Assembly: GCA_030706145.1 (NCBI GenBank)
Contig: JAUZPB010000022.1
Coordinates: forward strand, 1 to 48,735
From: Bacteroidota bacterium
GTDB lineage: Bacteria > Bacteroidota > Ignavibacteria > Ignavibacteriales > SURF-24
DNA: 48,735 nt
Direction: 5' to 3'
The notes under the pieces were generated by a model, which saw only the letters and a list, made by a program, of their open reading frames with translations, had not been told where the DNA came from and searched no databases. A program made the translations under genes and the position numbers. This document shows positions 3,234-38,412 of the stretch, one piece after another. The stretch's first letter is position 1. Every line of letters begins with the position of its first letter.

Positions 3234-4844
3234 ATGAAAGGGAAAATTATACTACTAATTTTACTGATAACATTTGCAGCAATTCAAATTACTTACGGGC
3301 AAAGCAATAATGTTTATATTGGAGCTGCAGCCTGCGGCACTTGCCATACAGCCGGAGGAGCTGCAGCACAAAAGCCTACATTCGACAGTTGGAAAGGCAC
3401 ATTGCATGCAGTTGCACATGATTCGATTTCAGCGCAAAATGCCTTTTATGGTTATGACTGTTTACAATGTCATAATACTGGCTGGGATCCAGCTCTAACG
3501 AACAGAGGAGCAGATGAGTTTGTAACTAAAGATACGACAAAAAAACCAAATTATGTGATAACTGATCAAACAAAATGGAATCTTGTAAAGAACGTAGGCT
3601 GTGAAGCTTGTCATGGACCAATGGGAGATGCAAGCACAGGGCAGCTAAGCTCCACACACTGGGGTTTTGGTACGACAAACAAGCCTAGCTATTCGGCAGC
3701 CGTTTGCGGCAGTTGTCATCAAGGTGATCATGATCCATTTTTTGAGGAATGGAAATTATCAGGACACGCAAAGTCGACACAGTCATCTTTTGTTGTAAAT
3801 AACAAAGCATGTGTAAGATGTCATGTAGCTCAAAGTTTTGTCCTTTATATAAGTAATCCATCGGCCTATAGAGACACACTACTTGTAACCGGAGCCGATA
3901 TTACACCAATTACATGTGCAACTTGTCACGATCCACACAGCAGGAAGAATGATTTCCAATTAAGATTTGCTTCGACAAATAAGGCCGTAATTTGTGATGA
4001 ATGTCACAATGCAGAGATAGATTCAGTCGATGTAAACGTAGCGCCACATCATGCAACTTCAGAGATATTTTCTGGAAAGAACTTCGGTTTCCATTATCCT
4101 GGTACAACATATCAGAATTCTGCACATCCCACTGTTGTCTCAGATACCAATTTCCTAAAGACTAAGGGACTGGAAGACAAATTAAGATGCATGGTTTGCC
4201 ATATGCATACAGATCCATACAACAACATCACGAAGAAAGCAGTTGTAGGGCACACATTTTCTCCAAATCCAAAGGCTTGCATGGTATGTCATACAGACTA
4301 TACTTCAAAAGTCGACACTTCAAATCATGCAAAACAGTTTGATTATCGTGGAATGCAGACAAAAACAGATAGTTTGATGAATGCCCTTGCAACAAAGCTA
4401 AAGGGTGCTTCAAAAGCAGATTCAGCTACCTTGTCTTTCAAGCAGGCAAATTACAATTTACTTGCAGCACAAGCAGAAGGAAGTCATGGAATTCACAACA
4501 CAAAGCTTGTACAGCAACTGTTGGTTGATGCAATTACCAATTTTACTCCAACAAGTGTCGAAGCGCTAAAAGGAGTTCCTGTATCTTATAGTTTGAGCCA
4601 GAACTATCCAAATCCGTTCAACCCGACGACACAGATAAAGTTTTCAATTGCGCAGGCAGGAAACGTTGCAATAAGAGTTTATGATGCCATTGGAAACGAA
4701 ATTGAAACACTTCATAATGGATATTTGGCAGCGGGTAATTACAGTGTAAGCTGGAATGCATCCAGATACTCCTCAGGTGTATATTATTATAAGATAACAG
4801 CTGGCAACTTTGAGATGGTAAAAAAGATGCTTCTTGTCAAATAG
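3234..4844 (+). CDS. Secreted nine-haem c-type cytochrome with type IX sorting domain
   Basis: The product is 536 residues. A signal peptide (about 1-22, ending TYGQ) sends it through Sec. Nine CxxCH haem-binding motifs follow: CGTCH (34-38), CLQCH (76-80), CEACH, CGSCH, CVRCH, CATCH, CDECH, CMVCH, and CMVCH at 349-353. The first part (VYIGAAACGTCH...W.GTLHAVAH) resembles the cytochrome c554 family. A helical stretch (about 365-440, with NYNLLAAQ and GSHGIHN) resembles the C-terminal helix region of NrfA-type multihaem cytochromes. The last 85 residues start with SQNYPNPFNPTT and end KKMLLVK, a type A sorting domain for type IX secretion. The protein should therefore be exported across the outer membrane and held at the surface. 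I infer a role in extracellular or periplasm-to-surface electron transfer, partner unknown. The transcription unit appears to be a single gene with its own terminator. Confidence 0.92.
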   Translation: MKGKIILLILLITFAAIQITYGQSNNVYIGAAACGTCHTAGGAAAQKPTFDSWKGTLHAVAHDSISAQNAFYGYDCLQCHNTGWDPALTNRGADEFVTKDTTKKPNYVITDQTKWNLVKNVGCEACHGPMGDASTGQLSSTHWGFGTTNKPSYSAAVCGSCHQGDHDPFFEEWKLSGHAKSTQSSFVVNNKACVRCHVAQSFVLYISNPSAYRDTLLVTGADITPITCATCHDPHSRKNDFQLRFASTNKAVICDECHNAEIDSVDVNVAPHHATSEIFSGKNFGFHYPGTTYQNSAHPTVVSDTNFLKTKGLEDKLRCMVCHMHTDPYNNITKKAVVGHTFSPNPKACMVCHTDYTSKVDTSNHAKQFDYRGMQTKTDSLMNALATKLKGASKADSATLSFKQANYNLLAAQAEGSHGIHNTKLVQQLLVDAITNFTPTSVEALKGVPVSYSLSQNYPNPFNPTTQIKFSIAQAGNVAIRVYDAIGNEIETLHNGYLAAGNYSVSWNASRYSSGVYYYKITAGNFEMVKKMLLVK

Positions 4845-5038: not shown

Positions 5039-6448
5039 ATGCGTATAGAAAAAGATTCGTTGGGAGAACTTGAGATAGCTGATGATGCTCTTTATGGAAT
5101 ACACTCGTATAGAAGTTATTTAAATTTCCCGTCATCTAATGAAAAAGTCAACCCCTATTTAATAAAAGCATATCTGCTAGTAAAATCAGCTGCAGCAGAG
5201 ACAAATTACAAGTGTGGTTTGTTATTTAAAGAGAAATTTGATGCGATAAAGGAAGCAATTGACCTGCTTTTGGAAGAAACTGAGTTAGCAATCATAAAAG
5301 AAAGTGATTCAATTTACGGCAAAGTAATTGTTGACCCGTACCAAGGTGGAGCCGGTACATCGCTGAATATGAACATAAACGAAATAATAGCAAATTCAGC
5401 TCTTATACTAATGGATAAGCAGCCTGGAGATTATGGACTAATTCATCCGCTTGATACGGTTAATATGTCGCAATCTACAAACGACACATATACCACAGCC
5501 TTTAAGATAGCATCGATCTATCTTTTACGAGAACTGACCGAATCCTTTGAAAAGCTTCAGAATGCTTTTCAGCAGAAAGAGAATGAATTTAAGGGAATAT
5601 TAAAGCTAGGAAGGACAGAATTTCAGGATGCAGTTCCAATAACTCTTGGGCAGGAATTTGGAGCATATGCTCAGGCGGTTTCAAGAGATCGTTGGAGGCT
5701 ATATAATGCAGAGGAACGTTTAAGATCTGTCAATATGGGAGGAACAGCAATTGGGAATTCGGTAACAGCTACAAAGAATTATGTTCTAAATGTAAATAGT
5801 ATACTGAAGAAAATTACAGGTTTACCTATTGCAAAGGGTGAGGACCTGATAGATGTAACTCAAAACCTAGATGTTTTTGCGGAAGTTCACGGTCTGGTAA
5901 AAGCCGGAGCAACAAGCATCATAAAGATTTGCAATGATCTTCGTTTTATGTCTTCTGGTCCCAAAGGTGGAATTGGAGAAATTGATGTACCTGCTGTGCA
6001 GGCCGGTTCGTCAATAATGCCAGGGAAAATAAATCCTGTGATACTAGAGCACGCAATACAGATATGTGAGCTCATAAAAGGGAATGATGTTATTGTTTCA
6101 AATTTGATCTCACAAGGGCATTTGGAATTAAATCCTTTCTTACCAATGATAAGCCACATTTTCCTGAAGTCCTTAGAGCTTCTGAAGAATACGAACCACA
6201 GGCTTGCAGAAAAATGCATAATAGGTATAACGGCAAATAAAGAAAGATGTACTCAGAACCTTATCTCCTCATCAGCCCTGGCGGCTTCATTTATAAAGGA
6301 ATATGGCTATGAAACAATTGAAGAGATAGTAAAATATGCAGCATCAAACAATCTATCTTTTATAAATGCGCTGCTTGAAAGTAAACTAATAAGTGAAACT
6401 GAGCTATATAGTATTGTCTCACGAGAACTGGGTGTAAAGATTGAATAG
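5039..6448 (+). CDS. aspA: Aspartate ammonia-lyase, linked to hydrogenase maturation
   Basis: It deaminates L-aspartate to fumarate plus ammonia in the cytoplasm. At 469 residues it has the normal length for the aspartase/fumarase superfamily. Seen motifs are GTSLNMNINEI, the SQSTNDTY substrate loop, GRTEFQDAVP (aspartase-type; fumarases have [10 protein letters not shown]) and the catalytic signature [12 protein letters not shown]. The 3' end overlaps hydF by 8 bases, so the two are translationally coupled. Clusters of aspA with hydEFG are known in Bacteroidota and Firmicutes, where AspA is thought to supply ammonia for the dithiomethylamine bridge of the H-cluster. That role is inferred here. 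The window also holds a true fumarase, which argues against this one being fumC. No clear Shine-Dalgarno precedes the ATG. Confidence 0.9.
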   Translation: MRIEKDSLGELEIADDALYGIHSYRSYLNFPSSNEKVNPYLIKAYLLVKSAAAETNYKCGLLFKEKFDAIKEAIDLLLEETELAIIKESDSIYGKVIVDPYQGGAGTSLNMNINEIIANSALILMDKQPGDYGLIHPLDTVNMSQSTNDTYTTAFKIASIYLLRELTESFEKLQNAFQQKENEFKGILKLGRTEFQDAVPITLGQEFGAYAQAVSRDRWRLYNAEERLRSVNMGGTAIGNSVTATKNYVLNVNSILKKITGLPIAKGEDLIDVTQNLDVFAEVHGLVKAGATSIIKICNDLRFMSSGPKGGIGEIDVPAVQAGSSIMPGKINPVILEHAIQICELIKGNDVIVSNLISQGHLELNPFLPMISHIFLKSLELLKNTNHRLAEKCIIGITANKERCTQNLISSSALAASFIKEYGYETIEEIVKYAASNNLSFINALLESKLISETELYSIVSRELGVKIE

Positions 6449-7664
6449 CCTGCCAAAATCCGAACGTACACATATAGTTTTTATAGGGAAGAGAAATGCT
6501 GGAAAGTCTTCTCTAGTAAATGCATTTATCGGGCAGGACCTTTGCATAGTAAGTGAAGTTCCAGGGACAACAACTGATCCGGTAAAAAAAGCCATGGAAC
6601 TATTACCGTTTGGACCTGTAGTACTAATAGACACAGCAGGCATTGATGACGTAGGAGAATTAGGCGAGAAAAGGATAAACAAAACAATAAAGGTACTTTC
6701 TTCAGCAGATTTTGCCGTTGTAGTTTTAGATGCATCTGAGAGTCTAACGGAAAAGGAAAAAAATCTATTTGAATATCTTAAAAAGCTTGGAATAGGATAC
6801 GTTGTTGTTATAAACAAATTTGATCTTGGAATTAACACCAAGCTCATCGAAGAAATGGAGAGCTTAAAGGTAAGATATTTTAAGGTATCCTGTAAAGACA
6901 ATTATGGAATAAGAGATTTAAAAGAAAAGGTCTCCAAACTAATACCTATTGAAGTTGAACCACCCTTAATAGGCGATTTAGTAAAACAAGGGGACCTGAT
7001 TGTTCTGGTAGTCCCAATTGATCTTGGGGCTCCTAAAGGAAGGCTAATACTGCCCCAGGTACAGACAATAAGAGAAGCCTTAGATGAAGATACTATCTGT
7101 ATAGTAACAAAAGATAAAGAACTGCGTTCTGCTCTAAATAAGATAAAGGGATCTCCCAAATTAGTTGTTACCGACAGTCAGGCAATAATGAGAGTAGCGG
7201 CAGATGTAGATGAAAGTATAGCACTTACGACATTTTCCATACTAATGGCTCGTCATAAAGGTGATCTTCCTGAGTTTGTAAATGGGTTAAAAAGAGTAGA
7301 AGAGCTTGAGAGCGGAGACAAAGTACTAATTGCAGAAGCATGTTCGCATCATGCAAAAGAAGATGACATTGGAAAGGTAAAGATACCTCGCTGGTTAAGG
7401 CTTCATACACAAAAAGATCTACAGATAGAAGTAAAAAATGGAGAAGACTTCCCTGAAAATCTTACAGATTACAAGCTGATTGTTCATTGTGGTGGGTGTA
7501 TGATGACACGCAAGGCAATGCAGATGAGAATAAACCAGGCAAGATTACTTGATGTTCCCATAGTAAACTATGGTGTATTAATCTCATATATGCATGGAGC
7601 TATCCCCAGAGCACTACTGCCATTTGAAGAGGCAGTTGCCTCGTGGGAAAAAGCACAAAATTAA
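6441..7664 (+). CDS. hydF: [FeFe]-hydrogenase maturation GTPase HydF
   Basis: HydF is the scaffold on which the diiron part of the hydrogenase H-cluster is built before transfer to HydA. At 407 residues it has the family length. The N-terminal GTPase domain shows a P-loop GKRNAGKSS (16-24), PGTTTDP (41-47), DTAG (64-67) and NKFD (125-128). A dimerisation domain follows. The C-terminal cluster-binding domain carries C301-x-H303 and H349-C350-x2-C353, the hallmark HydF [4Fe-4S] ligands. The start is TTG at 6441, inside the end of aspA. The next Met is at residue 51, beyond the P-loop, so TTG is needed. The stop overlaps the rluD stop within TTAA. HydE, HydG and a hydrogenase are not in this window. 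Confidence 0.96.
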   Translation: MNSLPKSERTHIVFIGKRNAGKSSLVNAFIGQDLCIVSEVPGTTTDPVKKAMELLPFGPVVLIDTAGIDDVGELGEKRINKTIKVLSSADFAVVVLDASESLTEKEKNLFEYLKKLGIGYVVVINKFDLGINTKLIEEMESLKVRYFKVSCKDNYGIRDLKEKVSKLIPIEVEPPLIGDLVKQGDLIVLVVPIDLGAPKGRLILPQVQTIREALDEDTICIVTKDKELRSALNKIKGSPKLVVTDSQAIMRVAADVDESIALTTFSILMARHKGDLPEFVNGLKRVEELESGDKVLIAEACSHHAKEDDIGKVKIPRWLRLHTQKDLQIEVKNGEDFPENLTDYKLIVHCGGCMMTRKAMQMRINQARLLDVPIVNYGVLISYMHGAIPRALLPFEEAVASWEKAQN

Positions 7665-8643: not shown

Positions 8644-9249
8644 TTATTTAAGGTCTTCCTGTTGGCTTGTAAGCTTAGAAGACTCATTGGTATTTGAACC
8701 AGGAATAAGACTTTTTTGTGTGCTTGAAAAGATAAGAAGAAGTATAACACCAATAGAGACAGCCATATCTGCAACGTTAAAGACAGGCCAGCGGTCATAA
8801 GTATAGCCAAGGAAATGAATGTCAAAGAAATCCACGTCAATAAAATCAACAACCTTACCGAAAAAAAGAGGTGCATAGCCGTAGAAGACGCCGTAAAAAA
8901 CGCGGTCGATCAGATTACCAACTGCGCCGCCTAAAATTATAGCCAATGATATCCTGAGTGTCAGGCTTTCTTTTCTAATTTTGAACAAATAGTAGATTAT
9001 GGCAATACTAGCAGCAATAGAAAAGAGCGATAAGAACAGTTTAGAGTTAATACCCAGATCAATGCCAAAAGCCATTCCGGGATTTTCTATATAAGTAAAT
9101 CTTAAAATCTGGCCCAAAACATCGTGTTTATCTCCATATAACATTCCTCTATGATGAATATTAAGGAATGGAATAGAAAAGCCTTTAACAATCAATTTTG
9201 TTATCTGATCAACGATCAGAATAAATAAGGAAATAAATAATACTCGCAA
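8644..9249 (-). CDS. lspA: Lipoprotein signal peptidase II, downstream copy
   Basis: This inner-membrane aspartyl protease removes signal peptides from diacylglyceryl-modified prolipoproteins. The 201 residues contain four hydrophobic segments, the ENPGMAFG motif (55-62), GNLIDR with catalytic Asp115, and FNVADM with catalytic Asp161. Both active-site Asp are present, so the enzyme looks functional. It starts with TTG at 9249, 12 bases after the stop of a close paralog. The first ~175 residues align without gaps to that paralog, with roughly two thirds identical by hand count. Only the hydrophilic C-terminal tails differ completely. This points to a tandem duplication followed by divergence. 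Confidence 0.93.
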   Translation of the reverse strand: MRVLFISLFILIVDQITKLIVKGFSIPFLNIHHRGMLYGDKHDVLGQILRFTYIENPGMAFGIDLGINSKLFLSLFSIAASIAIIYYLFKIRKESLTLRISLAIILGGAVGNLIDRVFYGVFYGYAPLFFGKVVDFIDVDFFDIHFLGYTYDRWPVFNVADMAVSIGVILLLIFSSTQKSLIPGSNTNESSKLTSQQEDLK

Positions 9250-9261
9250 AATTCAATACTC

Positions 9262-9879
9262 TCAGTTTTCTTCGTCTTTTTTCACATCAGAATCATTTTC
9301 CAGAACAATAGTACCAGCAGAATCGTTCTGCTGCATTTGAGGTGTTTCCTTTCTGCTAAAAAAAAGTAGCAAGCAAACGCCAAAAGTAACGGCAACATCA
9401 GCAATATTAAAAATCGGGAAGCGGTCAATAATAAAGCCAAATAGATTGACAGGATAGAAGTTAAATTCAAACAGATCTACAACCTTGCCAAAAAAAACAG
9501 GAGCATAGCCAAAAAAGATGCCATAGAAAGCTCTGTCGATAAAATTACCGATAGCTCCAGCAAGAATAAGAGCCAAAGCAATTCTTAGGATCAATCTCTC
9601 ATTTCTAACTTTATATAAGTAATAGACAATGCCTACACTAGCAAAAGCAGAAAACAAAGAAAGAAACAATTTTGAAGTTACTCCAAGACCGATTCCGAAT
9701 GCCATCCCAGGGTTTTCAACAAAAGTAATCCTTAAAAAGGAACCCAAGAAGTTATGTGTTTCGGCATAACTCATCCCATCTATATGTATTTTTAGAAAAG
9801 GGATCGAAAACCCTTTGACGCATAATTTCGAAATCTGATCTGCCAGAACTACAAACAGAGAAAGAAAAAGTACTCTCAA
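9262..9879 (-). CDS. lspA: Lipoprotein signal peptidase II, upstream paralog
   Basis: The product is 205 residues and belongs to the same family as its neighbour. It has VENPGMAFG (54-62), GNFIDR with Asp115, and FNIADV with Asp161, at the same residue numbers as the other copy. Four transmembrane segments are followed by an acidic, Asp/Glu/Lys-rich tail (about 175-205). The start is TTG at 9879, as in the sister gene, and both are preceded by a TGAG purine stretch. The gene begins 29 bases after the DksA-like gene and is probably in the same operon. The loops between 131 and 152 differ most from the sister copy, so the two enzymes might prefer different lipoprotein substrates. That is speculative. 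Confidence 0.93.
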   Translation of the reverse strand: MRVLFLSLFVVLADQISKLCVKGFSIPFLKIHIDGMSYAETHNFLGSFLRITFVENPGMAFGIGLGVTSKLFLSLFSAFASVGIVYYLYKVRNERLILRIALALILAGAIGNFIDRAFYGIFFGYAPVFFGKVVDLFEFNFYPVNLFGFIIDRFPIFNIADVAVTFGVCLLLFFSRKETPQMQQNDSAGTIVLENDSDVKKDEEN

Positions 9880-30978: not shown

Positions 30979-32724
30979 CTACTTTGCAAGAACTATTTTA
31001 ATGGTGTTATTAAAACTACCTGCTGACATCCTAATGAAATAAATTCCGCTGGCAAGGCTGCTACCATCTAAGGTAAAAGAATACTGCCCCTTTTCCCTAC
31101 TACCTTCAAAAAGCGTAGATATTTTTACACCCAAAACATTATACAGTTCCAATCTAACAAAAGACTCAGCTGGAATTGAATAGGAAATTTTTGTAGTAGG
31201 ATTAAAAGGATTTGGATAGTTCTGTTCAAGGACAAAACTATTGGGTATGTTATTTTTCTTGTCACTAACGTCAGTTGCCAGGCTAAGTACATAATCGAGA
31301 GCCTTTTTGGCATCAATTATTCCCCAGCCATAGAATCTATCAGGATTTGATTTATTTGAACCGCTATTTCTAAGGGCATCTCTTATCTGGACTGGAGTAG
31401 CCTTTGGATCAGCAGATAAAAGTAAGGCTGCAACACCCGCTGTCAAAGGGCAGCTAAAAGAAGTCCCGCTTCCACTTACATACTCATTTGGGGCAGTAGA
31501 GCCTGCCAGAGTATCGGACACCCCCATAGCCATTACATCAGGCTTAATTCTTCCATCTGAAGTCGGTCCAATGCTACTAAAATAGGCTTTCTTTCCTAAG
31601 TAATCGACAGCTCCAACTGTAACAATGCTATCTGCATCGGCAGGAGCACCAAGTGTATTATGTTCTGAATTTTCTCCTTCATTTCCGGCAGAAACGACCA
31701 CCACAATGCCTTTTCTTGCTGCAAGAGCAGCAGCTTTAGTTATTCTAGCTGTATGGCCATTCATATCCTGCCAGGTATAGCTCTGGTAGGGCGGATCAAA
31801 AGTAAGATAGCCAAGGGAAGTAGAAATAACATCAACGCCAATGCTATCGGCCCATTCCATAGCAGCTATCCAATTATCTTCCTCAACAGGAGTTTCGCTT
31901 TCTGTATTTTCTGTTTTGGCCAATATAAAATTAGCTTCATAAGCCGGGCCTATTAATTTGCTATCTTTGAAGCCGCCGACTGCAGAAAGTGTTGCAGTGC
32001 CATGAGAGCCTTCACCTTTAAGGTTAGGGGCATCGCCTACATTGGGGCCATTATTTACAAAATCCCACTTAGCCAAAATCTTCATCTTGCTGAAGACCTC
32101 GTGAGCTAAGTTACTAAAGCCAGCATCAAAGACACCAACTGTTACACCTTTGCCTGAATACCCCAAAGCATGAACAGTTGGCACATTTATCTGCTGAAGC
32201 TGTGTAAAAGAGCTCCCATAGTTAAGAGAATAAATATCTTTTTTTAGAGTATTATTGGAAATGCCGGCTGGTTTACTTAAATCTCCAATATTTAACTTAA
32301 ATTTTCCTACCAGGTCTACTTGCTTTACATATGGAAGAGAGGAAACAAGTTTGACCATACGGGCACTAAGAAAACCACTAACTCCGTTAAACCACTTAGA
32401 TTTTTGTTTAAGAAGAAAGCCATAATTCTTCAGGAGATTCACATAGTCCGGAAAGATGGGGTAATCAGTTATGTCAATCAAAGCATCTTTATCAAGCAGT
32501 TTTGCCCGTCTTTGAACAGATTTTTCGCCTAAATAATTTTCAGGCTGCATTTTAGCAGTCTCTTTATTTAGTCCTTTATCTGAAAAAAACACCCAGACAA
32601 GTACTTTTTCATCTGGTTTAACTGAGCTAATCCTTGATCTTAAGGCTTCAGTTATTTTGCCGCCATTTGCAAAGGCAGCTGTACAAAAAAAGAATAGAAA
32701 TAAAAGTATTAAACTCTTACGCAT
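30979..32724 (-). CDS. Secreted subtilisin-like (S8) serine protease with type IX sorting domain
   Basis: The product is 581 residues. A signal peptide (1-19, ending AFAN) is followed by a propeptide-like region (about 20-165). The S8 catalytic domain has Asp200 (VGVFDAGF), His241 (GSHGTAT), oxyanion Asn348 (VVSAGNEG) and Ser422 (SGTSFSCP), a complete active site. Residues about 490-581 form a type A C-terminal sorting domain (LEQNYPNPFNPTTKISYSIP... to KIVLAK). The enzyme is expected outside the cell or on its surface, degrading peptides or maturing other exported proteins. It is a single gene on the minus strand, between metG and the foldase operon, with its own terminator. Confidence 0.95.
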   Translation of the reverse strand: MRKSLILLFLFFFCTAAFANGGKITEALRSRISSVKPDEKVLVWVFFSDKGLNKETAKMQPENYLGEKSVQRRAKLLDKDALIDITDYPIFPDYVNLLKNYGFLLKQKSKWFNGVSGFLSARMVKLVSSLPYVKQVDLVGKFKLNIGDLSKPAGISNNTLKKDIYSLNYGSSFTQLQQINVPTVHALGYSGKGVTVGVFDAGFSNLAHEVFSKMKILAKWDFVNNGPNVGDAPNLKGEGSHGTATLSAVGGFKDSKLIGPAYEANFILAKTENTESETPVEEDNWIAAMEWADSIGVDVISTSLGYLTFDPPYQSYTWQDMNGHTARITKAAALAARKGIVVVVSAGNEGENSEHNTLGAPADADSIVTVGAVDYLGKKAYFSSIGPTSDGRIKPDVMAMGVSDTLAGSTAPNEYVSGSGTSFSCPLTAGVAALLLSADPKATPVQIRDALRNSGSNKSNPDRFYGWGIIDAKKALDYVLSLATDVSDKKNNIPNSFVLEQNYPNPFNPTTKISYSIPAESFVRLELYNVLGVKISTLFEGSREKGQYSFTLDGSSLASGIYFIRMSAGSFNNTIKIVLAK

Positions 32725-35315: not shown

Positions 35316-35329
35316 AGGAGGGGTGGAGG
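35316..35329 (+). promoter_or_regulatory. Double Shine-Dalgarno before the alcohol dehydrogenase gene
   Basis: AGGAGGGG at 35316-35323 and GGAGG at 35325-35329 stand side by side. The second is 7 bases before ATG 35337. Two strong ribosome sites in tandem suggest efficient translation of the dehydrogenase-kinase pair. Confidence 0.7.
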
Positions 35330-35336
35330 ATCTAAT

Positions 35337-36503
35337 ATGGAGATTCATAATAAATTTGAGCTACGAAAATTTGTAGCTCCTGAGTTCATTTTTGGTGAAG
35401 GATCAATTAACCTAGCAGGTCAGTATGCCAGAAACTTTAATGCGAGGCGGGTTTTAATAGTTACAGATCCCGGAATAATACAGGCGGGCTGGGCAAAGGT
35501 AGTAGAGACAAGCCTGGAAGCGCATGGGATCGGCTTTCTGACGTTTTCGAATATTACTCCAAATCCAAAGGCAGAAGAAGTCATGCAAGGGGCAGAATTA
35601 TTCCACAATTCCAGGTGTGATTGCATAGTTGCAGTTGGAGGGGGAAGTTCAATTGACTGTGCAAAAGGGATTGGGATTGTTGCCTCTAATAGAAGGCATA
35701 TACTAGAGTTTGAAGGAGTAGACAAAGTTCAATATTCAATGCCCCCAATAATTTGTATTCCAACTACAGCCGGTACAGCAGCCGATGTTTCCCAGTTTGC
35801 AATAATAACAGACTCAAATGAAAAGTTAAAGAAAGCAATAGTAAGCAAGGTAGTCGTACCTGATGTAGCCCTTATTGATCCAACGACGACGACGACAATG
35901 CCCAATTATCTGACAGCATGCACAGGCATCGACTGTCTGGTTCATGCAATTGAAGCATTTGTATCAAATGCAAGTTCAATGATCACCGATGTTCATGCAA
36001 TGGAAGCTATTAGACTAGCTTCAAAATACCTCCTACGTGTCTTAAGAGAACCAAACAATATGGAATACAGGACCAAAATGATGATGGCTTCACTAGAGGC
36101 GGGACTTGCCTTTTCAAATGCCAGTCTAGGGGTTACGCATGCTATGGCACATTCACTTGGAGGACTTACAGATGTAGCCCATGGCGAATGCAACTCTATT
36201 TTAGTTGATCATGTGCTTGAATTTAATTTTAAGGGTGCACCAGATCGTTATGCCAGAATTGGGGATGCTATGGGGTTAAATTTAAAGGGTGAAGACACAA
36301 AATCGATAAAAAAATCGATACTTGCAGAAATATCCAGGTTGAAGAAAGAAGCAAAAATAAACAATAGGTTAAGTAGTATAGGAATTGGATTTAGTGATAT
36401 CCCATATTTAGCAAAAAATGCAATGCATGATATCTGTGTAGTAACCAATCCGCGTAAACCTGTAGAAAAAGATATTGAAGTAATCTATGAAGAAGCACTC
36501 TGA
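35337..36503 (+). CDS. Iron-containing alcohol dehydrogenase, ErcA-like
   Basis: The product is 388 residues of the group III metal-dependent alcohol dehydrogenase family. The NAD-binding part has FGEGSINL, VTDPGI, VAVGGGSSIDCAKGI and IPTTAGTAADVSQFA. Metal ligands by family pattern are Asp199, His203 (GIDCLVHAIEA), His268 (THAMAHSLGG) and His282 (DVAHGECN), all present, so it should bind iron. The stop overlaps the start of a PAS histidine kinase by 17 bases. In Pseudomonas, ErcA (an iron ADH of this type) works with PAS kinases ErcS/ErcS' in controlling ethanol oxidation. The same pairing here suggests a sensor or regulatory dehydrogenase. Substrate is unknown. Confidence 0.88.
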   Translation: MEIHNKFELRKFVAPEFIFGEGSINLAGQYARNFNARRVLIVTDPGIIQAGWAKVVETSLEAHGIGFLTFSNITPNPKAEEVMQGAELFHNSRCDCIVAVGGGSSIDCAKGIGIVASNRRHILEFEGVDKVQYSMPPIICIPTTAGTAADVSQFAIITDSNEKLKKAIVSKVVVPDVALIDPTTTTTMPNYLTACTGIDCLVHAIEAFVSNASSMITDVHAMEAIRLASKYLLRVLREPNNMEYRTKMMMASLEAGLAFSNASLGVTHAMAHSLGGLTDVAHGECNSILVDHVLEFNFKGAPDRYARIGDAMGLNLKGEDTKSIKKSILAEISRLKKEAKINNRLSSIGIGFSDIPYLAKNAMHDICVVTNPRKPVEKDIEVIYEEAL

Positions 36504-38412
36504 AGAAAACAACTGGGAGATTCTCCGCCAGGAAGTCATAGGACTTGGAGAAAGGTCTGTAAGAAAAAACAGCTATACCGAATTAAAGAACAGGTTAGAC
36601 GATCTTGAGAGATTTAGATTTCTACTTGATTGTACTTTAGATTCGATATTTGTTGTTGAAATTCCCACAGGCAGAATTATAGATATAAATAAATCGGTGA
36701 TAACGCTTTTTGGTTACAGCAAAGATCAAATTCTTTCAATGAATATAAAAGAAGTGTTCGAAGAAGATCTTTGTGAGAAAATAATCAATATTCCAGAAAA
36801 TGAAAAATCAAAGGACCAATATCAGGAAATAGTTTTAACAAAAGTAAAAAGCAAAATCAGAGAGCCTTTTCCAGTCGAAATTTCTATTAATTCAGCAAAA
36901 TTCTTTTCAAAGATCTATGCAATAATTTTAGTAAGGGATATAACAGAAAGAAAGAAGCAGGAAGAAGAATTAAAAAGATTTAAGTTTATTTTAGACCATT
37001 CTGGAGAGGAGTTTTACCTATTCAATCCCGATGGGAGTTTTGCCTACGTAAACGAAGCAGTTGCCAAAAGTCTTCAGTACTCAATAGAAGAGCTCCTGGA
37101 GATGAAAATATTTCAGATAAATGGGAATGTAAATCAGAAGAGTTTCCTTAAGCATTTTGAGTTTTTAAAGGAAAATGATATTCCCCCATATGAGATAATG
37201 CAAACGACAAAATATGGCAATTTAATCCCCAAGGAAATAAAATCAGTTTATTTAAAGATAGGTGAAAAAGAATACATTTGCAGTTTTGCCCGTGATATAA
37301 CACTTCGCAAGAAGTCAGAAGAAGAGTTAAGAAAGCTTTCAAGGGCAGTTCAGCAAAGTTCAAGTCTAATAATAATTACGGACCTTCTTGGAAAAGTAGA
37401 ATATATAAATCCCAAATACAGCAATGCAACTGGCTTTATGCTTGAGGAAATAAATGGAGAAATTCCGAAATTTCTCAGCTATGATAGCAAAAATCCGGAA
37501 AGGTTTAAGAATCTTTGGAGTACTATCTTAGCCGGGAGGGAATGGAAAGAAGAGCTAAAGGTAGCAAAGAAGGATGGGGATAGCATTTGGATACAAGCTT
37601 CAATTTCCCCTGTTCAAAATGATTTGGGGAAAATCACTCACCTATTATGTACAGCCGAAGACGTAACAGATCAAAAAAGAGCAGAAGAAGAACTAATTAG
37701 GGCAAAGGATAAAGCCGAAAGATCGGACCGGCTTAAATCAGAGTTTCTTGCACAGATGTCACATGAAATACGTACGCCTGTAAATACAATATTAAATTAT
37801 ATTTCGCTAGTAAAAGAAGAGCTGCAATCAAACATTTCTGAAGATCTAAAGGTCAGTTTTAAGGCCATAGACAATGGGTCAAGAAGACTAATAAAGACGA
37901 TTGATTCGCTAATAAATATGTCGCAGATTCAAACGGGCAATTATGATTACAATCCAGCAAGGATAAATCTAGAGAAGGATATACTAGAAAATGTTATACT
38001 TGATTATCTGTATCTAGTAAAGGGAAAGAATGTTGATCTGAAATTTATCAATAAAGCAGAAAGTCCGGTTATTAGTGGAGATATCTATTCAATCACCCAA
38101 ATTTTTGCTAATCTGATTGATAACGCTGTAAAATATACAAATGAAGGAAAGATTGATGTTGTTTTATATAATTGTGAGGATTCTCTGTGTGTAGATGTCA
38201 GTGATACAGGAATTGGAATTTCAGATGAATACATGGGTCGTCTTTTTCAGCCATTTTCTCAGGAAGATACAGGTTACAGGCGCAGATTCGATGGAAATGG
38301 TTTAGGCTTAGCATTGGTATTAAAATATGCAGAATTAAATAATGCAGAGATCAAAGTTAAAAGCGAAAAAGGAAAGGGATCAACATTTACGGTTAAATTT
38401 AATTCAAAATAA
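36487..38412 (+). CDS. Soluble multi-PAS sensor histidine kinase
   Basis: The product is 641 residues with no transmembrane segment or signal peptide, hence cytoplasmic. Three PAS domains are visible. The first is about 40-155 (FLLDCTLDSIFVVEIPTGRIIDINKS..VRDITERKKQEEEL), the second about 160-275, and the third about 285-400 (ending TAEDVTDQKRAEEEL). The kinase core has SEFLAQMSHEIRTPVNTILN (H-box with the phospho-His), QIFANLIDNAVKYTNEG (N box), DVSDTGIGIS (G1) and GNGLGLALV (G2). No receiver domain is fused and no response regulator is adjacent. Translation is coupled to the upstream ErcA-like dehydrogenase by a 17-base overlap, so the signal may come from that enzyme's substrate or redox state. 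Confidence 0.93.
   Translation: MKKHSEENNWEILRQEVIGLGERSVRKNSYTELKNRLDDLERFRFLLDCTLDSIFVVEIPTGRIIDINKSVITLFGYSKDQILSMNIKEVFEEDLCEKIINIPENEKSKDQYQEIVLTKVKSKIREPFPVEISINSAKFFSKIYAIILVRDITERKKQEEELKRFKFILDHSGEEFYLFNPDGSFAYVNEAVAKSLQYSIEELLEMKIFQINGNVNQKSFLKHFEFLKENDIPPYEIMQTTKYGNLIPKEIKSVYLKIGEKEYICSFARDITLRKKSEEELRKLSRAVQQSSSLIIITDLLGKVEYINPKYSNATGFMLEEINGEIPKFLSYDSKNPERFKNLWSTILAGREWKEELKVAKKDGDSIWIQASISPVQNDLGKITHLLCTAEDVTDQKRAEEELIRAKDKAERSDRLKSEFLAQMSHEIRTPVNTILNYISLVKEELQSNISEDLKVSFKAIDNGSRRLIKTIDSLINMSQIQTGNYDYNPARINLEKDILENVILDYLYLVKGKNVDLKFINKAESPVISGDIYSITQIFANLIDNAVKYTNEGKIDVVLYNCEDSLCVDVSDTGIGISDEYMGRLFQPFSQEDTGYRRRFDGNGLGLALVLKYAELNNAEIKVKSEKGKGSTFTVKFNSK

Follow-up and report, generated by a model that had tools for sequence, protein, structure and literature searches.

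In Pseudomonas, an iron-dependent alcohol dehydrogenase (Fe-ADH) called ErcA or YiaY is paired with a PAS kinase, and the pair regulates alcohol oxidation (PMC12997753, PMC7427536). The two genes are co-cistronic, loss of yiaY or PP_2683 lowers the expression of the ped cluster, residue H281 of YiaY is required, and a contact between the N-terminal domains of the two proteins has been predicted with AlphaFold3 (PMC12997753). A 2026 review treats the signaling of ErcA/YiaY as open and leaves undecided whether sensing is direct or proceeds via YiaY (PMC12997753, section 18). A separate sensor protein also controls a PAS hybrid kinase in the NosP-NahK (ErcS') system, but NosP is not an ADH (PMC12997753). 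In Cupriavidus necator, the enzyme-like H2 sensor HoxBC is complexed with the histidine kinase HoxJ (PMC10073562, PMC6978683), a comparable use of an enzyme as a sensor, although the enzyme itself is unrelated. The DNA analyzed here, called the window, comprises 48,735 nucleotides (nt) of a Bacteroidota contig (JAUZPB010000022.1). On its forward strand, it carries an operon of an ErcA-type Fe-ADH, proposed as an alcohol sensor (35337-36503, 388 amino acids, aa), and a soluble PAS-PAS-PAS histidine kinase without a receiver domain (36487-38412, 641 aa). The kinase starts with a tag that recurs in the partners of ErcA, and the operon is probably an ErcA-type sensor module, in which an ADH-fold alcohol sensor would dock on this dedicated tag.

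The window pair is a relative of the Pseudomonas ErcA-ErcS (YiaY-PP_2683) pair, since its ADH passes the NCBIfam ErcA model NF041833 with 613.1 bits over residues 8-388, above the curated cut-off of 550; the original prediction of an ErcA-like ADH is thereby borne out. As in the window, an ErcA equivalog is followed by a PAS kinase in P. aeruginosa (ErcA-ErcS, PA1991-PA1992) and in P. putida (YiaY-PP_2683, the latter also called YiaZ). The PAS domain of ErcS is listed at residues 41-157 (PMC8694187), which leaves room for a tag ahead of it. Unlike the Pseudomonas pair, the window pair has a kinase with three PAS domains and no receiver, belongs to a lineage that appears Bacteroidota-like from its type IX secretion system (T9SS) sorting tails, and resides in a genome without a pyrroloquinoline quinone (PQQ) alcohol dehydrogenase over the cut-off. 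The joint action of an ErcA-type ADH and PAS kinases in Pseudomonas, on which the prediction drew, was already in print together with the AlphaFold3 contact (PMC12997753). The tag, the swapped outputs behind it and the sister class described below are new beyond that prediction. Neither a tag of this kind nor ErcA paired with other outputs was found described in the literature searched, which consisted of titles and the starts of abstracts and included few subscription papers.

The association of ErcA with its partner is conserved. In all 38 ErcA loci read (11 from a protein search, 26 further ones, and the window), a partner gene stands behind ErcA, and the tag lies directly behind the ADH, the largest gap being 34 nt (L131). 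Genomes with an ErcA over the cut-off carry the pair in 16 of 16 cases in Pseudomonadota, seven of seven in Desulfobacterota, and four of four in the window's own phylum, so that the adjacency proposed for survey holds in the ErcA-bearing genomes of all three draws. As a control, 36 non-sensor Fe-ADH loci were examined for a downstream match to the window kinase (phmmer, E up to 1e-3, the open reading frame, ORF, starting between 60 nt before and 400 nt after the ADH stop) or to the tag profile A1, and none had one; this set does not contain L146, which proved to be of the sister class, and L142 is covered for only 406 nt downstream. The pairing of ADH and kinase, like their overlap, is more than chance.

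The tag occupies residues 9-42 of the window kinase (36511-36612, forward strand), with the core GLGERSVRKNSYTELKNRLDDLE, and is supported by profiles, by identity comparison, and by an AlphaFold2 model. Its consensus across ErcA partners is GLGExSxRKSYYPELxxRLxELE. Profile A1 was built only from ErcA neighbors (15 rows, one of them the window kinase, which matches at E 1.8e-20) and was used in six-frame searches of whole genomes. Among 299 Pseudomonadota genomes, the tag occurs in 16 and ErcA over the cut-off in the identical 16; 23 further genomes have only sub-cut-off ErcA matches and no tag. There was no match away from ErcA in these 299 genomes, so any NahK encoded there went unmatched. 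Among 198 Desulfobacterota genomes, eight have the tag and seven have ErcA, all seven being among the eight, and the eighth tag (G727) follows an ErcA-like ORF of 197 aa lacking residues ~115-307. In the own phylum, five matches were obtained in 198 genomes. The four strong ones come from the four ErcA genomes (ErcA was sought in 395), and the fifth (G100) is a weak match of 18 residues (E 7e-4) in a genome without such an ADH. The 11 genomes of the protein search contain 12 tags, each behind an ErcA. All these genome counts are raw and uncorrected for relatedness, and the phylum of G415 (148 genomes) was excluded as an independent sample because it repeats Desulfobacterota genomes.

Within the partners, the tag is the conserved part. 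Its residues 13-41 have a mean identity of 54%, versus 19% for the PAS region that follows (210 pairs; 21 of the 38 partners entered, in the main ones that have PAS behind the tag, without the divergent tags of L038 and L131). Over 37 tags, a set without L023, which is nearly identical to L021, mean identity is 57% and the lowest 27%; over 26 thinned tags, the mean is 54%. Two simpler accounts of the tag were considered. As a by-product of overlapping coding it was rejected, since its core begins past the ErcA stop codon and the overlap therefore offers no explanation for its conservation. As a general N-terminus of PAS kinases it was not supported, as every strong match of profile A1 in the 198, 299, and 198 genomes lay behind such an ADH; the same holds for the second profile, A6, in 163 genomes that overlap the 198 of Desulfobacterota.

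The proteins behind the tag vary in their output. In a Pfam scan of 21 of the 38 tagged proteins (the window kinase and 20 others), eight were HisKA kinases and eight were HisKA hybrids with a receiver, the remainder being one HisKA_2 protein (L040), one HisKA_3 protein (L128), two GGDEF-EAL proteins (L024, L126), and one short protein (L027). The partner at L022 has no PAS behind the tag and that at L031 has a GAF domain first, and both retain the tag. It is rather unlikely that the tag is an inherited dimerization or signaling helix of a single kinase lineage, making no contact with ErcA: the latter half of the tag forms a long helix that leads to the PAS domain, a typical site of coiled-coil signaling helices, but the same tag heads HisKA, HisKA_2, HisKA_3, and GGDEF-EAL proteins, and its only match without such an ADH among the genomes searched is the weak one in G100. 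Several partners are of interest in their own right. The tagged GGDEF-EAL proteins (L024:1365-3551 and L126:1461-4025) place a cyclic di-GMP enzyme at the kinase position in two phyla. In G002, of the window's family, a partner of 3012 aa (L038:10129-19167) with PAS-like repeats, as judged by eye, lies behind a divergent ErcA. The tagged protein at L027 (7139-7897) ends at 252 aa with only PAS recognized by Pfam, and its end falls within a region that by eye resembles the start of a phosphatase domain.

An AlphaFold2 model of kinase residues 1-165 (mean predicted local distance difference test, pLDDT, 84.9) contains a helix at residues 23-49, modeled with high confidence, which continues into the PAS fold at 53-151. 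In a Foldseek search with this model, the best 50 of 1273 matches were nearly all PAS or LOV sensor proteins. In the mechanism proposed, ErcA would bind an alcohol together with its cofactor, perhaps oxidizing it slowly, and would dock onto the N-terminal tag of the partner translated with it. The bound ligand, or its turnover, could then alter the long helix of the tag, which leads without a break to the first PAS domain and on to the kinase, and kinase activity would be set in this way. With strong conservation concentrated in the tag, one sensor might be coupled to different outputs. For the window organism, a target in alcohol metabolism is proposed.

The ADH itself carries Fe-ADH domains in a domain scan. 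Its metal ligands by family, Asp199 (35931-35933), His203 (35943-35945), His268 (36138-36140), and His282 (36180-36182), all on the forward strand, stand at the positions predicted earlier and make up a complete iron-ADH active site. A tree was built from 56 Fe-ADH rows, 55 of them distinct since L035 and L041 among the non-ErcA rows are one gene; in it, a single branch with support of 100/100 splits the 37 ErcA rows from the 19 others. A placement of the ADH among ordinary catabolic ADHs, which would have spoken against a sensor module, was thus not seen; this one clade and the conserved adjacency support the earlier suggestion of a conserved enzyme-as-sensor module. The NAD (nicotinamide adenine dinucleotide) motif and the metal site are intact in the window ADH, and residues adjoining them are changed in the whole clade. 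The ErcAs of the own phylum are scattered in this tree, which suggests transfer, although their deep placement is not firm. An internally deleted ErcA, the L128 frame of 197 aa in G727 (ORF from 1506), lacks residues ~115-307 and with them all metal ligands, and was dropped from the ligand alignment, the 56-row tree, and the comparison of sensor residues. It still precedes a tagged HisKA_3 kinase and may reflect natural decay or an assembly collapse. Another genome, G415, has two ErcA copies (L022, L132), each with a tagged partner of its own.

The two window genes share 17 nt (36487-36503, forward strand), as the original prediction had noted; they are not fused, as its wording implied, but constitute two ORFs. 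The Tyr-Glu codons TAT GAA at the C-terminus of ErcA supply the kinase ATG, and because ErcA ends with Tyr-Glu and TAT GAA contains ATG, the same overlap recurs. The ATG giving 17 nt is found at 13 of 16 loci in one set (window included) and 19 of 22 in another, counts that include several close relatives. The Tyr is present in 33 of 37 ErcA rows, and the four with Phe (L038, L039, L114, L126) are without that ATG; in non-ErcA Fe-ADH rows, the position is Phe in 16 of 19 and Tyr in 3 of 19. A further reading takes the ErcA end CTC TGA as a +1 frameshift site from which an ErcA-kinase fusion protein arises. Most ErcA genes of the 16-locus set do end in CTC plus TGA or TAA, and the kinase lies in the +1 frame. 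However, the overlap of most loci contains an ATG for the kinase, the pair is kept at loci with other ErcA ends (L031, L038, L039, L040), and the sequence is accounted for if the same bases encode both the end of ErcA and the start of the kinase. Such a frameshift is highly improbable.

A sister class of this system exists in Desulfobacterota. Three ADHs below the ErcA cut-off (482-499 bits on the ErcA model) precede kinases with a tag-like start, as do further ones with 404-432 bits. The variant tag, LxGIxxSKxGFFxEVxxKIxEL, was missed by profile A1 and found by inspection beside the sub-cut-off ADHs. In a single profile-profile comparison of the ErcA tag with four sister tags, two of them nearly identical, the probability was 88.8 (E 2.5e-6). 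Profile A6, built from seven sister-class rows, matched in 12 of 163 genomes. Eleven of the matches are sister-class tags, all of them preceded by an Fe-ADH, and the twelfth is a canonical ErcA tag (E 9.9e-6). As neither Pseudomonadota nor the own phylum was among the genomes searched with A6, the sister class may also occur there. A quick tree of 50 ADHs places ErcA (24 rows) and the sister class (11 rows, namely 10 of the 11 A6 loci plus L154; L164, cut by a contig end, is absent) on one side of a branch with support of 100 in the Shimodaira-Hasegawa-like approximate likelihood ratio test, and 15 catalytic ADHs on the other. Judged from this tree, both putative sensor classes are one clade apart from the catalytic ADHs. 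They share residues that are rare in 23 catalytic rows: K11, E16, F19, W52, Y89, P142, D150, S152, Q153, S170, S252, and S260. According to Pfam, a sigma54 response regulator stands beside the sister kinase at 10 of 12 loci (L147, L148, L149, L151, L152, L153, L154, L168, L170, L171); none was seen at L169, and L167 is indeterminate. At least six sister loci also contain a catalytic-type ADH, and an aldehyde ferredoxin oxidoreductase was confirmed at three (L167, L168, L170). The cluster at L170 (1347-8351) is compact and unites sensor ADH, tagged kinase, sigma54 regulator, catalytic ADH, and aldehyde ferredoxin oxidoreductase.

The gene order DVU2396-DVU2395-DVU2394 of Desulfovibrio vulgaris Hildenborough fits the sister class, and by analogy a variant tag is predicted in DVU2395. 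Unlike the window pair, which has none found nearby, this group has its own response regulator. DVU2396 is an Fe-ADH (Adh2), reported with two peptides (PMC10920352). DVU2394 is the sigma54 response regulator of the DVU2405-2397 operon, which includes adh and heterodisulfide reductase genes, and adh is required for growth on ethanol (PMC3333781, PMC4641369). For each of DVU2394, DVU2395, and DVU2396, mutations are recorded in at least two groups of evolved populations (PMC7439460), and those of DVU2394 and DVU2395 in PMC8319347 as well.

Several observations weigh against a docking alcohol sensor. The first part of the tag, a helix at residues 7-17 and a loop at 18-22, has low confidence in the AlphaFold2 model (pLDDT 50-60), and the start of a sister kinase was modeled as one helix (9-53) running into the PAS domain, with no helix-loop-helix seen. 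No -24/-12 (sigma54) promoter was found in the 400 nt upstream of the catalytic ADH at six sister loci when 9 of 11 matches were required. No other alcohol gene was found among the 33 window ORFs examined, and the window genome, 98% complete, has no PQQ alcohol dehydrogenase over the cut-off (TIGR03075), so that PQQ alcohol oxidation is an unlikely target of the kinase. The match to the D. vulgaris genes relies on locus numbers and published annotation, not on sequence, and DVU2395 is presumed to be a kinase. It was classed by the authors of PMC7439460 under general laboratory or stress adaptation. In P. putida, single loss of yiaY shortened the methanol lag (PMC10308882), which agrees, indirectly, with the lower ped expression. 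Finally, all metal ligands are kept in 37 of 37 ErcA and 11 of 11 sister rows, so the sensor protein may simply be an active enzyme.

These intact ligands also favor an alternative in which ErcA is an ordinary enzyme, co-translated with the kinase but never in contact with it, whose product or NADH is sensed by PAS. PAS domains often bind small ligands. The Pseudomonas review, too, leaves direct and YiaY-mediated sensing open (PMC12997753). The first PAS region is poorly conserved (the 19% identity given above), however, partners without PAS (L022) or with GAF first (L031) keep the tag, and a tag tied to the enzyme would be needless for a diffusible product. This alternative is unlikely, and docking of ErcA on the tag is the reading preferred here. 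PQQ alcohol oxidation was likewise not supported as a general output of ErcA, TIGR03075 being over the cut-off in 5 of 26 selected ErcA genomes, all of them Pseudomonadota.

In the window kinase, the Pfam scan finds PAS_9 in three stretches. The first PAS domain (residues 53-151 in the model, 36643-36939) is supported by Pfam, AlphaFold2, and Foldseek; the third (residues 295-395, 37369-37671) comes from the domain scan, as do the HisKA dimerization and phosphoacceptor domain (residues 417-484, 37735-37938; H-box MSHEIRTP from residue 424) and the HATPase_c catalytic domain (residues 532-638, 38080-38400), all on the forward strand. The same scan gave no Response_reg (receiver) match. The highest 19-residue Kyte-Doolittle mean is 1.1, which indicates no membrane span and fits the soluble three-PAS kinase that had been predicted. 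The kinase falls below the cut-offs of the ErcS/NahK hybrid-kinase models (113.7 of 1500 bits for NF041831 and 120.4 of 400 bits for NF041832).

Around the operon, the double Shine-Dalgarno sequence of the original prediction exists as two runs on the forward strand, AGGAGG (35316-35321) and GGAGG (35325-35329), but both stand ahead of the ADH rather than the kinase, and a usual spacing to the ADH start is kept by the second alone (7 nt). A response regulator, reported as absent nearby, was not found in the window outside the pair, where 33 of the 48 ORFs with 100 aa or more were examined. A HydF-type hydrogenase maturase (6441-7664) hints at a hydrogen-linked anaerobic metabolism. T9SS sorting tails occur on window proteins (30991-31218 and 4605-4832), tail matches numbering 150 among the 150 scored of 201 candidates. 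Two signal peptidase II (Peptidase_A8) genes adjoin each other at 8644-9879.

The chances are about even that the tag of ~30 residues is a portable docking module, which would place any tagged output, be it a histidine kinase of any of the three phosphoacceptor types, a hybrid kinase, or a cyclic di-GMP enzyme, under a dedicated clade of alcohol-sensing ADHs; this clade would have a single origin among catalytic Fe-ADHs and would since have passed from phylum to phylum. On that view, a single sensor family would include both Pseudomonas ErcA and the D. vulgaris adh regulator as separate branches. As the tag co-occurs with the sensor ADH and stays constant before varied outputs, it names a likely contact, which could be tested with a 40-residue peptide and point mutants. 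It would also link the ethanol regulator of Pseudomonas to a regulator of energy metabolism in Desulfovibrio and may offer a modular alcohol biosensor.

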